From positions 1 to 36,610 of IMG/VR virus record IMGVR_UViG_3300014913_000036: DNA of 36,610 nt. One strand, given 5' to 3'. The position numbers and the translations under genes are program-made. The notes under the pieces were generated by a model. The model did not search any database, had not been told where the DNA came from, and saw only the letters and a list, made by a program, of their open reading frames with translations. Shown piece by piece: positions 11,987-24,983 of the stretch (positions are counted from its first letter, which is position 1; every line of letters begins with the position of its first letter). The DNA comes from a virus.

Positions 11987-12203
11987 TTCTTCTCCTCAAC
12001 ATATCTTCTCTAATGTCTTTGGTATTTTGAGTCCTACCTTTTCTTGTTTCTCTTAGTAAAGCCTCTCTAGCACTTTTAGTCCAACTGTCTTCGTTTCTTA
12101 TCTTTCTGCCAGTTTCCTCAATTACTTTTTTCATAACTGGGTCGCGAGTGTTTTTATACTCCCTGCGGAGTTGTTGTAAATCTGCTTGTCTTGTTTTATC
12201 CAT
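11976..12203 (-). CDS. Small basic helical protein, hypothetical
   Basis: This 75-residue protein is very rich in Arg, Lys and Glu and almost wholly helical, ending RREDMLRRR-like. It is the first gene after the coat-protein hairpin (12250-12279). The AT-rich leader carries a 17-bp tandem repeat (12213-12246). I recognise no family. Small highly charged proteins just after the coat gene can be head-completion or nucleic-acid-binding proteins, which is inference from position. Confidence 0.5.
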   Translation of the reverse strand: MDKTRQADLQQLRREYKNTRDPVMKKVIEETGRKIRNEDSWTKSAREALLRETRKGRTQNTKDIREDMLRRRNAI

Positions 12204-12212
12204 AATTTTATT

Positions 12213-12246
12213 AATTTTATTTTAACAAAAATTTTATTTTAACAAA
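12213..12246. repeat. Exact 17-bp tandem repeat in the leader after the coat gene
   Basis: AATTTTATTTTAACAAA occurs twice head to tail with no gap between the coat-gene hairpin and the ATG at 12203. It is almost pure A/T and may be an UP-like element, a leader spacer or simple slippage. No convincing -10/-35 pair could be placed in it. Confidence 0.8.
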
Positions 12247-12249
12247 TGC

Positions 12250-12279
12250 GGGGATACAGTTAAGGGCGTCTGTATCCCC
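12250..12279 (-). terminator. Strong hairpin downstream of the coat gene
   Basis: A perfect 10-bp stem (GGGGATACAG with CTGTATCCCC) and a 10-nt loop begin nine bases after the coat-protein stop. The following minus-strand sequence is AT-rich but lacks a clean U-run. It may be a partial terminator, or a 3' stabiliser that raises coat-protein mRNA relative to the downstream genes. Confidence 0.7.
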
Positions 12280-12287
12280 TATCTCGA

Positions 12288-13241
12288 CTAAACGCTAGTG
12301 AAACGACAACTTAATGCCCAATTACTGTTAAGTAATTTAGTTGCATAAGAACCCGCCCACGAAATTTTAGTGATTCTACCAACAGGTGAGTTTGAATCCA
12401 CCACGTTAGGAAGAATATAAAGTTTCGGAACGTCTTGTGCTAAGTCGTAAGTTCCAAATGCGTCAGAGCCGTGAACATAAGTATAGAACCTTGTAACACC
12501 CGAAGATGCTGTTGATGCCGCTTCTGTTCCAGACGATAAGTCTTTATTCAAAAGCCATCGAACCTGGTATAACTCACCCATCTCTCCTTTGTAAAGTTTC
12601 TTTACATCAGAATAGACTTTGGAATTAATCCAAGTTGTATCTCCCAGCAATCTGTGTTTGCTATAAGGGTCTGTCTTCCCCATAAAAGTCCCGTCTTTAT
12701 AAGCACGAGCCTTATTTAGTTCAAGCTGTCTCACCATCAAACGGATATTACAAGCATCCAAAACATCGCCTGCGGCGATGCTGGCTACATCGTGTCCATT
12801 TGGGTAATAGGCTGTCCCATTTTCAAGCTCATTCCTAACCAAACGGTTAAGAGTTTCGCCCATATTTTGACCGACTAATTCGACTTTCTCCTTAGCACCT
12901 GAATCAATAGAAACCAAAGTCTCCATCTTTCCAGAGTTTACGGTTAAACCATAGGCTGAAAGAGTCATCGAAACGGTGCAAGCTGTGACGGCACAGGTTA
13001 CAGGGTTAGAAGCCTCTCCCAATGGGGTAGTAATAATACTTAGTGGTTCGTAACGCGTAAAGTTTACGGTGTGTCCTGAATTAACAGGGTGAGTTCTTTT
13101 TTGAGAACCCTCTTTCAATATCAAGTCATACTCCGCCCTAGCTAAGAAAACTTTTTCGTAGTAGGTCATTATCTCTGCAGATAACGATGAAGTAGTATTG
13201 ACATTGGTTGCACCGGATATTCCGCTACCGACTACTGCCAT
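12288..13241 (-). CDS. Major capsid protein, N4-gp56 family
   Basis: This 317-residue protein carries the hallmarks of the N4-gp56 capsid family: a Thr/Ser-rich start leading into SLSAEIMTYYEKVFLARAEYDL, then GHTVNFTRYEPLSIITTPLGE (about 58-78), then QNMGETLNRLVRNEL near residue 130, which fit the HK97-fold arm, E-loop and spine helix. Its start has AGGAG eight bases upstream. It directly follows the scaffold gene and is followed by a strong hairpin. It would form the head shell. Confidence 0.92.
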   Translation of the reverse strand: MAVVGSGISGATNVNTTSSLSAEIMTYYEKVFLARAEYDLILKEGSQKRTHPVNSGHTVNFTRYEPLSIITTPLGEASNPVTCAVTACTVSMTLSAYGLTVNSGKMETLVSIDSGAKEKVELVGQNMGETLNRLVRNELENGTAYYPNGHDVASIAAGDVLDACNIRLMVRQLELNKARAYKDGTFMGKTDPYSKHRLLGDTTWINSKVYSDVKKLYKGEMGELYQVRWLLNKDLSSGTEAASTASSGVTRFYTYVHGSDAFGTYDLAQDVPKLYILPNVVDSNSPVGRITKISWAGSYATKLLNSNWALSCRFTSV

Positions 13242-19630: not shown

Positions 19631-19744
19631 AACTTCTGCTCCTCCTAATTAGTAACTAAACTAACAATATACTATCCAACTTAGAAAGTAAATTAGTAAA
19701 AACTATATCAACTTTACTTCTTTACAGATATGTTATAATAGCTT
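19631..19744. promoter_or_regulatory. Divergent control region between early (+) and replication/late (-) genes
   Basis: This 114-bp AT-rich gap separates the two transcription directions. On the plus strand it holds the extended -10 promoter at 19731-19739. On the minus strand a TATATT (19666-19671) with a weak TTTACT -35 may serve the gene at 19630. ATTAGTAA occurs at 19648-19655 (next to a TTAGTAACTAA palindrome) and at 19692-19699; the same octamer lies in the spacers of two early promoters. No coding frame was found. Confidence 0.55.
19731..19739 (+). promoter_or_regulatory. Extended -10 promoter TGTTATAAT for the small HTH gene
   Basis: A perfect extended -10 lies five bases before ATG 19745. 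The -35 is weak (TTTACT at 15-nt spacing). The message would be leaderless or nearly so. Confidence 0.6.
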
Positions 19745-19888
19745 ATGAAGACAAAGTTTTCGTATAAGAAGTTTGCCGAGATAAAGAGTTTAATTGAATT
19801 GGGTGTTCCGATTGCCAAGATAGCAAGAAAGTTTAAAATCACCAGACAAACCATTCACCACTGGCTTAATACTAAATCAACTACTTGA
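19745..19888 (+). CDS. Small helix-turn-helix protein (47 aa), probable early regulator
   Basis: This 47-residue protein is almost entirely one homeodomain-like helix-turn-helix, resembling the DNA-binding end of resolvases and transposases: IKSLIELGVPIAKIARKFKI then TRQTIHHWL. It has no catalytic domain. It is the first plus-strand gene, follows a -10 box by five bases, and its stop overlaps the -35 of the next promoter (19885). It is the best candidate for the protein that reads the ATTAGTAA sites nearby. Confidence 0.7.
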   Translation: MKTKFSYKKFAEIKSLIELGVPIAKIARKFKITRQTIHHWLNTKSTT

Positions 19889-19913
19889 CAGATTAGTAAA
19901 GATAGTCTATAAT
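19885..19913 (+). promoter_or_regulatory. Early promoter TTGACA-N17-TATAAT (copy 1)
   Basis: Perfect -35 and -10 hexamers at 17-nt spacing. Fifteen bases of the spacer (GATTAGTAAAGATAG) are the same as in the promoter at 22412-22440, which suggests a shared operator. It drives the early operon starting at 20006 after a leader of about 85 bases with short alternative CAACT/AGTTG pairings. Confidence 0.85.
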
Positions 19914-22411: not shown

Positions 22412-22440
22412 TTGACAGATTAGTAAAGATAGAGTATAAT
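22412..22440 (+). promoter_or_regulatory. Early promoter TTGACA-N17-TATAAT (copy 2)
   Basis: Perfect hexamers at 17-nt spacing, with the first 15 spacer bases (GATTAGTAAAGATAG) the same as in the promoter at 19885-19913. The -10 ends six bases before ATG 22447, so the first message is probably leaderless. Confidence 0.88.
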
Positions 22441-22446
22441 GAAATT

Positions 22447-22911
22447 ATGAAAAAAGAAACCTCCGAAACCGTTGAATACTTAATCTCCTTTATAATTGCA
22501 ATAATGCTAGCATTCTTTCCAATGGGAATGTTTAACCGACACCAAATTAAAGAACAGAAAACTCCGACAGTAACCCCAACTACAATTCCAACTCCTACCT
22601 TAACTCCTTGTGACGAACCTATGTGCTATATAAGAAGAAAAGGTCAATCGTTGGGATATGATGATTACACTATTACCAAGTTTATAGAATTGGCTAAGGT
22701 TGAGAGTAGTCTTAATCCCAAAGCAAAGAACCCCAACTCTACCGCTAAAGGACTTTACCAATTTATTGATTCAACCTTTGCTCTTTACTGTAAAGGTGAT
22801 GTATATAACTACAAAGACAATGTAAACTGCTTTTACTCTATTCTCGAAAGAGAGGGCTATCCTAGAGGCCTAAGACACTGGAAAGTGAGTCTAGAGAAAG
22901 CAGGACTATAA
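22447..22911 (+). CDS. Membrane-anchored lytic transglycosylase (SLT domain)
   Basis: This 154-residue protein has one membrane segment (residues 11-28), a Thr/Pro-rich linker (39-54) and a lysozyme-like domain with catalytic Glu86 in AKVESSLNPKA followed by STAKGLYQFIDSTF, the SLT signature. The start is ATG 22447, set by the promoter just upstream; a longer frame from 22354 would include the terminator. It would cut peptidoglycan from a membrane tether. It is far from the lysis genes and under an early promoter, so it may alter the wall early in infection rather than lyse. Confidence 0.82.
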   Translation: MKKETSETVEYLISFIIAIMLAFFPMGMFNRHQIKEQKTPTVTPTTIPTPTLTPCDEPMCYIRRKGQSLGYDDYTITKFIELAKVESSLNPKAKNPNSTAKGLYQFIDSTFALYCKGDVYNYKDNVNCFYSILEREGYPRGLRHWKVSLEKAGL

Positions 22912-22997
22912 TGCCAATGGTGGGCTTCTGGGAGGTTGACCCACCAAAGGCAACCTTTTTGGGAATATGCTCAAAAGGGGAGAACATTAAAAATTGA
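22911..22997 (+). CDS. Possible 28-residue minigene
   Basis: A short frame begins in the TAATG that ends the transglycosylase gene and stops at TGA 22997. It encodes MPMVGFWEVDPPKAT, a LGICSKGEN segment and a basic end. The same bases form two RNA hairpins (TGGTGGG with CCCACCA at 22918-22946, and a bulged stem near 22960-22980), so this may be leader RNA rather than a gene. Confidence 0.3.
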   Translation: MPMVGFWEVDPPKATFLGICSKGENIKN

Positions 22998-23003
22998 ACA
23001 TTA

Positions 23004-23157
23004 ACCCGTGAGTATAGTGCAACTGATTCATTACCAGCTCTGTCAACTCAGTGTTGCCCCGATGGAAGCCCAAAGAAACTATACAAGGCGACTAATTCCA
23101 TCAAGTATACGAGGGTTACCAATCAGGCGAAGTACAAGTTTGATTGGTAGCACGGGT
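23004..23157 (+). ncRNA. Candidate structured RNA with pseudoknot, family unknown
   Basis: This gap can form five perfect helices: closing stem ACCCGTG/CACGGGT (23004-23010 with 23151-23157); GTATAGT/ACTATAC (23012-23018 with 23078-23084); GCAAC/GTTGC (23019-23023 with 23053-23057); GATGGAA/TTCCATC (23061-23067 with 23096-23102); and a 9-bp hairpin TACCAATCA/TGATTGGTA (23117-23125 with 23141-23149). The second and fourth cross, making a pseudoknot. The GTATAC at 23105 could compete for the same strand. No RNA family is recognised, and no convincing coding frame was seen in it. It may be a 5' leader element or a processed phage RNA. Confidence 0.6.
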
Positions 23158-23188
23158 GAGTGTTTAATTATTACTTATTAAATAAACT

Positions 23189-23392
23189 ATGAAAAAGAAA
23201 GACTTAATCAAGGAAATTACAACCATTAGGGACATTAACCAAAGAAACAGTATGGGGTGTAGTGAAAATTGGTATAACCCAAGGTGGTCGGTTAACCATA
23301 CATTTTCTAAGCAAGAGTTAGAACAGATGACACTTAAAGAAATTAACAATTTATTGAAACTAGCCGAAGCGATATCGGACGGTCTTTACTAA
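23189..23392 (+). CDS. Small hypothetical protein (67 aa) downstream of the structured RNA
   Basis: This basic, helical protein has an SKQELEQMTLKEINNLLKLAE C-terminal half, a pattern seen in short phage proteins of unknown role. It starts 31 bases after the closing stem of the structured RNA and has no clear ribosome site, so the RNA could influence its expression. No cysteine pair, signal peptide or membrane segment is seen. Confidence 0.6.
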   Translation: MKKKDLIKEITTIRDINQRNSMGCSENWYNPRWSVNHTFSKQELEQMTLKEINNLLKLAEAISDGLY

Positions 23393-23457
23393 TTAAATAA
23401 AAACAAAACATAAAAAAACTAAAAGCAATATTAGAATATAATGGTTTTTTAAAAAGG

Positions 23458-24401: not shown

Positions 24402-24621
24402 GAAGGAATTTATAGAAGAATTATGTCGAGCAATTTCTTTCTGTGAAAACAGCAACATTATGTTAAATCAAAATTACTGCAACCCCTATGTAGATCCGAC
24501 TAAAATAGTAATAGCTTTCCGCCAGGCCATCAAACAAGTAGTAGAGAGCGTGCCAGTAGTTGAAGAAATTAAACAATGGAAAAAGAAAATATTAGATGAT
24601 TTACTAAAGGAGGACAAATGA
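24382..24621 (+). CDS. Hypothetical protein (79 aa) between two YopX genes
   Basis: The start is ATG 24382, chosen for AAGGAGGAC six bases upstream; a longer frame from 24283 lies inside the YopX gene. The protein is helical, with Cys near residues 15, 21 and 34, a PTKIVIAFRQAIKQVVE middle and a DDLLKEDK end. It overlaps both neighbours (20 bases and ATGA). Family unknown. Confidence 0.6.
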   Translation: MNLKRIEKEFIEELCRAISFCENSNIMLNQNYCNPYVDPTKIVIAFRQAIKQVVESVPVVEEIKQWKKKILDDLLKEDK

Positions 24622-24983
24622 AAAAAGTTAGATTTAGAGTTTGGGATATTATAAATAAAAGAATAATTAAAAAACCATACTTACATTTTGTAGACGGAGA
24701 AAGTTTTTTTATTAAAGAAAAAGGAGAACCAATTAGAAGTGACTTAGAATTTATTCTCTTGCAATTTACTGGCTTGAAGGATAAAAACGGAAAGGAGATA
24801 TACGAGGGGGATGTTGTTAAATATATTACAACGGAAAGAAATGTTTATGAAGTAAGATTTGCAAACGGTAAATTTGTCGCTTTTAATAGGTTCATGCAAC
24901 ACGACTTGTTTTTTATTTCAAAGAACGCCAAGGTTATTGGGAACATTTATCAAAATTCTGAATTACTAAAGGAGAACAAATGA
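24618..24983 (+). CDS. YopX-family protein (second copy)
   Basis: This 121-residue protein is a shorter paralogue of the gene at 23832. It shares FRVW at the N-terminus, LKDKNGKEIYEGDVV (about 57-71) and VIGNIYQNSELL. The loop insert of the first copy, rich in Lys and Trp, is missing. Both copies keep the core residues, so both may be functional and mix in one oligomer. Coupled by ATGA overlaps on both sides. Confidence 0.85.
   Translation: MKKVRFRVWDIINKRIIKKPYLHFVDGESFFIKEKGEPIRSDLEFILLQFTGLKDKNGKEIYEGDVVKYITTERNVYEVRFANGKFVAFNRFMQHDLFFISKNAKVIGNIYQNSELLKENK

Follow-up and report, generated by a model that had tools for sequence, protein, structure and literature searches.

A predicted structured RNA domain in the gap between two early genes of a phage

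Judging from computed folding energies, a compact RNA fold on the plus strand is very probable for the gap between two early genes of the uncultured phage in the IMG/VR record IMGVR_UViG_3300014913_000036. We analyzed positions 1 to 36,610 of this record, a stretch of 36,610 nucleotides referred to as the window. A preliminary description had proposed an undescribed structured RNA at 23004-23157, and this proposal holds, because the fold beats shuffled controls, the plus strand is favored, and no Rfam family matches. Together with the poor coding score of the overlapping open reading frame (ORF), the folding energy, the strand bias, and the lack of an Rfam match make a structured, non-coding, and undescribed plus-strand RNA well supported. 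As for its function, we tentatively prefer, with somewhat less than even confidence, a cassette-borne RNA domain controlling in cis the downstream gene for a 67-residue protein, perhaps via alternative pairing of the sequence GTATAGT.

Folding statistics and architecture of the gap

The segment 23004-23157 has a folding energy of -46.5 kcal/mol (z -3.81 against shuffles, none of which matched it), and the entire gap, 22912-23188, folds at -90.9 kcal/mol (z -5.39), again with no equal among the shuffles. The comparison with shuffled controls, suggested beforehand as a check, thus came out in favor of the region at both scales. The reverse strand folded more weakly, with a z of -2.0 for 22990-23165 and of -1.6 as a 240-nt tile. 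At the 240-nt scale, the plus strand of the region reached a z of -4.97, which only one of the 304 tiles of the window surpasses. Within 154 nt, the region holds four Watson-Crick helices of at least 7 bp, compared with a shuffle mean of 0.42, and none of the 400 dinucleotide shuffles reached this number. The domain has a G+C content of 0.46 against 0.37 for the window. Such a fold might also arise by chance if, in an A+T-rich phage, a gap of higher G+C content is singled out as the best one among many, and similar or better z values indeed occur in other tiles (e.g., 12241-, z -5.67). We consider this explanation improbable in view of the helix count and the unmatched z of -5.4 for the whole gap. 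The 57-residue ORF at 23008-23181 was rejected as a coding sequence, as its score of -0.17 falls under the -0.11 that marks the 5th percentile for stop-free stretches.

The five helices listed in the preliminary description are all exact at their coordinates (Table 1). The closing stem was confirmed for its perfect part, but its real extent is longer than first described, so that the domain spans about 186 nt instead of 154. Likewise, the two hairpins noticed upstream exist, but their limits of 22918-22946 and about 22960-22980 had to be corrected. Helix C is stacked on helix A and continuous with the 5' strand of the latter.

Table 1. Features of the intergenic gap and its surroundings (positions in the window).
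Feature	Position	Strand	Details
Promoter, sigma-70 type	22412-22440	+	TTGACA-17-TATAAT, 12/12 match; upstream of the SLT gene
Upstream gene	22447-22911	+	Transglycosylase SLT domain protein; start codon (ATG) 6 nt downstream of the -10 box
Hairpin 1	22912-22952	+	TGCCAATGGTGGG...CCCACCAAAGGCA
Hairpin 2	about 22954-22979	+	CCTTTTTGGG/CTCAAAAGGGG
Structured RNA domain	about 22988-23173	+	~186 nt; closed by stem P1
Closing stem P1	22988-23010/23151-23173	+	23 nt, 83% paired; includes perfect 7 bp 23004-23010/23151-23157
Helix A	23012-23018/23078-23084	+	GTATAGT/ACTATAC, 7 bp; crosses B
Helix C	23019-23023/23053-23057	+	GCAAC/GTTGC, 5 bp
Helix B	23061-23067/23096-23102	+	GATGGAA/TTCCATC, perfect 7 bp; crosses A
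Near-copy of leader	23072-23082	+	AAAGAAACTAT; 10/11 match to the next gene's leader AAATAAACTAT at 23180-23190
End hairpin E	23115-23151	+	Watson-Crick core 23117-23125/23141-23149, 9 bp; 14 bp with G-U
Orphan gene, 67 aa	23189-23392	+	No Shine-Dalgarno; leader TTATTAAATAAACT

The gap also contains a direct repeat, GAACATTAA, present in two copies 14 nt apart (22982 and 22996). This repeat, the dyads, and the position at a mosaic boundary would suit an element acting at the DNA level, such as a replication origin, a recombination site, or a protein-binding site, whose dyads can be folded as RNA by accident. A DNA site has no need of a strand-biased folding energy or of G-U pairs on the plus strand, both of which we observed, and we regard this explanation as very improbable.

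Relatives and known RNA families

The sole other copy of the domain to be found is an identical one in IMG/VR; its contig, 3300014914_000072, has 99.96% identity with the window along 14.6 kb. Among the phages that differ, the closest (contig 3300013103_000004) lacks the RNA domain; in the longer segments that it shares with the window, identity is 94.6-97.4%. Its identity to the window ends at 22958, just past hairpin 1, and resumes at 23415 for 96 bases, with other genes lying in between. Hairpin 1 is identical in both phages and sits where they diverge. The break in identity, together with the different genes of the relative, indicates that the RNA is part of a replaceable cassette.

Homologues were sought by several routes. 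We found none by blastn in phage and plasmid records, and only the identical contig was retrieved from IMG/VR by exact and gapped patterns, and from IMG/VR and the GTDB genomes via the 57-codon stop-free frame. Matches of 15-mers in IMG/VR amounted to 47 loci, which by our own estimate is about the chance level for that collection. In other viral loci, including the whole records of distant relatives, a covariance model derived from the window gave no convincing match. The remaining matches were attributed to chance, among them one that falls within the ORF of a tail gene. A search for relatives of the 67-residue gene likewise returned nothing besides the identical contig. The absence of a diverged homologue from these searches, and with it of covariation and of a conserved link to the gene at 23189, counts against the cis-acting reading. 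If real, the domain would exemplify structured RNA as the exchangeable cargo of a phage early operon, located at a cassette boundary that is itself fixed, and at the same time an RNA without detectable relatives among millions of viral contigs. Orphan RNAs escape covariation surveys, and such a case would illustrate this blind spot.

Among the 4227 families of Rfam 15, none matched at the curated gathering cut-offs, so that the covariance search envisaged in the preliminary description identified no family. Relaxing the threshold to E values up to 10 for 22850-23250 yielded only three unrelated weak matches, none of them to group I introns. The topology had been likened to group I intron cores, and on paper the order of helix, inner hairpin, and crossing helix does resemble that of P3, P4-P6, and P7. 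The likeness ends there. Neither the gathering score nor a limit of E 10 brought a match to the group I covariance model (RF00028). The seven pairs of helix B follow one another without the bulged nucleotide of P7, and no gene is interrupted, the site being flanked by complete ORFs at 22447-22911 and 23189-23392. Unlike a group I core, the domain also has its two ends closed in a single long stem. We rejected a group I intron on the first three of these features.

The manA and wcaG motifs, which are structured cis leaders preceding phage genes and stem from metagenomic phage DNA, are nearest in kind (PMC2864571). Both motifs comprise many aligned members showing covariation (PMC2864571), whereas the domain described here is known from one sequence and has no Rfam match. 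GOLLD and ROOL are elaborate phage RNAs of unknown function, the latter with pseudoknots; the length of GOLLD is often above 800 nt, and tRNA islands often lie near either of the two (PMC12286853). The present domain of about 186 nt matches neither and is of a different kind. A tRNA search of the phage found none.

The crossing helices

The claim of a pseudoknot stands in part: the strands of the crossing helices A and B are present in the sequence, and their joint formation is plausible at most, a rough energy sum being near neutrality. Forcing helix B while leaving the strands of helix A free changed the folding energy from -46.5 to -43.3 kcal/mol, a cost of about 3 kcal/mol, and helix A would regain about 10 kcal/mol by our own sum of standard stacking energies. 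A usual pseudoknot penalty of 7 to 10 kcal/mol would cancel this gain, making the pseudoknot plausible only. Shuffling the region 400 times produced a crossing pair of 7-bp helices once. Such pairs are also present in 35 of 715 genome tiles (about 5%), the genome being A+T-rich; this feature alone is hence not rare. We dropped a search with a loose descriptor of the pseudoknot topology, as it returned many matches in real and shuffled sequences alike. The alternative partner at 23105-23109, suggested earlier as the switch for the strand at 23078-23084, can pair with it, but only weakly (5 bp, -2.2 kcal/mol).

The frequency of such crossings by chance and the neutral energy sum would also agree with a passive inter-cistronic spacer, which stabilizes the mRNA, has a part in its processing, or insulates the two cistrons from each other, and involves neither switch nor pseudoknot. 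Hairpins precede other genes of this phage, too, e.g., upstream of 12203, 3755, and 34408. By comparison with these single hairpins, the four-helix domain is much more complex, and the gap reaches a z of -5.4; we judge a mere spacer to be rather unlikely.

Transcription and possible roles

The perfect promoter ahead of the SLT gene is the likely source of the transcript carrying the RNA. It shows no substitution across 22407-22496 in contig 3300013103_000004, while the stretch just before it is much diverged. On its plus strand, the gap contained no site resembling a promoter or a terminator, and 15 nt separate the end of the domain from the ATG of the 67-residue gene on the same strand. Of the roles proposed at the outset, a cis-acting leader fits these features best. 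A packaging-type RNA found no evidence, and the phage carries ordinary terminase genes.

In the cis-acting reading, read-through of the early operon from the promoter at 22412 would generate a transcript containing the domain, which would serve as the inter-cistronic leader of the gene at 23189. Pairing of GTATAGT with ACTATAC would form the pseudoknot and leave the start region free, and pairing with ACTATG would sequester the start codon. The folding state, which a protein, a ligand, or the ribosome may in turn determine, might thereby tune the translation of the gene. The two pairings were computed at -5.6 kcal/mol for ACTATAC in the domain and -4.5 kcal/mol for ACTATG at the start codon, and this similar strength makes a start-site switch possible. 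Against the switch, GTATAGT could reach the start codon only by a pairing that crosses the closing stem; predicted nested folding leaves GTATAGT unpaired with the start codon, and the start region lies outside the domain.

The 3' side of helix A sits inside AAAGAAACTAT, the near-copy of the leader, which is a possible decoy for the 5' strand of helix A. An equally good copy of the leader is held by 0.15% of shuffles, a figure to be read with the post hoc recognition of the similarity in mind. In contig 3300013103_000004, a gene with a similar A+T-rich leader occurs without the RNA domain, so a leader of that type works without it. A switch based on a decoy of the leader would, if true, constitute a simple and testable mechanism. 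That the domain represents a hitherto undescribed class of regulatory RNA in phages, combining a four-way-junction pseudoknot, a decoy leader copy, and a switch between open and closed start codons, appears quite doubtful.

The domain is self-contained, with a 23-nt closing stem and flanking hairpins, which would also befit a stand-alone RNA acting in trans. Such an RNA could be cut from the early transcript, e.g., by an RNase III-type cleavage in the closing stem or the two upstream hairpins, and function as a sponge, a decoy, or an RNP scaffold, being an accessory module like the cassette genes. Its absence from the nearest relative is as expected of accessory cargo, and its elevated G+C content points in the same direction. 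On the other side, neither a promoter nor a terminator belongs to the domain itself, and no homologue was detected in IMG/VR, the GTDB genomes, or phage and plasmid records at the sensitivity used. We therefore see a trans-acting RNA as an unlikely competitor of the cis-acting leader.

Several observations on expression signals were made elsewhere in the window. A second perfect TTGACA-17-TATAAT promoter is found at 19885-19913 and has the same 15-nt spacer start, GATTAGTAAAGATAG, as that at 22412-22440; the common spacer start is possibly an operator for a phage regulator. TATAAT boxes lie 5-6 nt upstream of ATG at 22435-22449, 19734-19747, and 18293-18280 (-), a spacing that suggests leaderless mRNAs in this phage. 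Several gene starts lacking a Shine-Dalgarno sequence have in common AAACTATG after an A+T-rich leader (23184, 18732 (-), 14027 (-), and 34413 (-)).

The best terminase matches are to Flavobacterium phages with 48% identity, too distant for naming the host, and no prophage turned up when genomes were scanned for the terminase. The strongest folding tile of the window lies at 12151-12450 on the minus strand (z about -6) and contains the hairpin GGGGATACAG/CTGTATCCCC ahead of the gene starting at 12203. Positions 24618-24983 encode a 121-residue protein that PADLOC matches weakly (E 2e-4) to a model for type II restriction enzymes.
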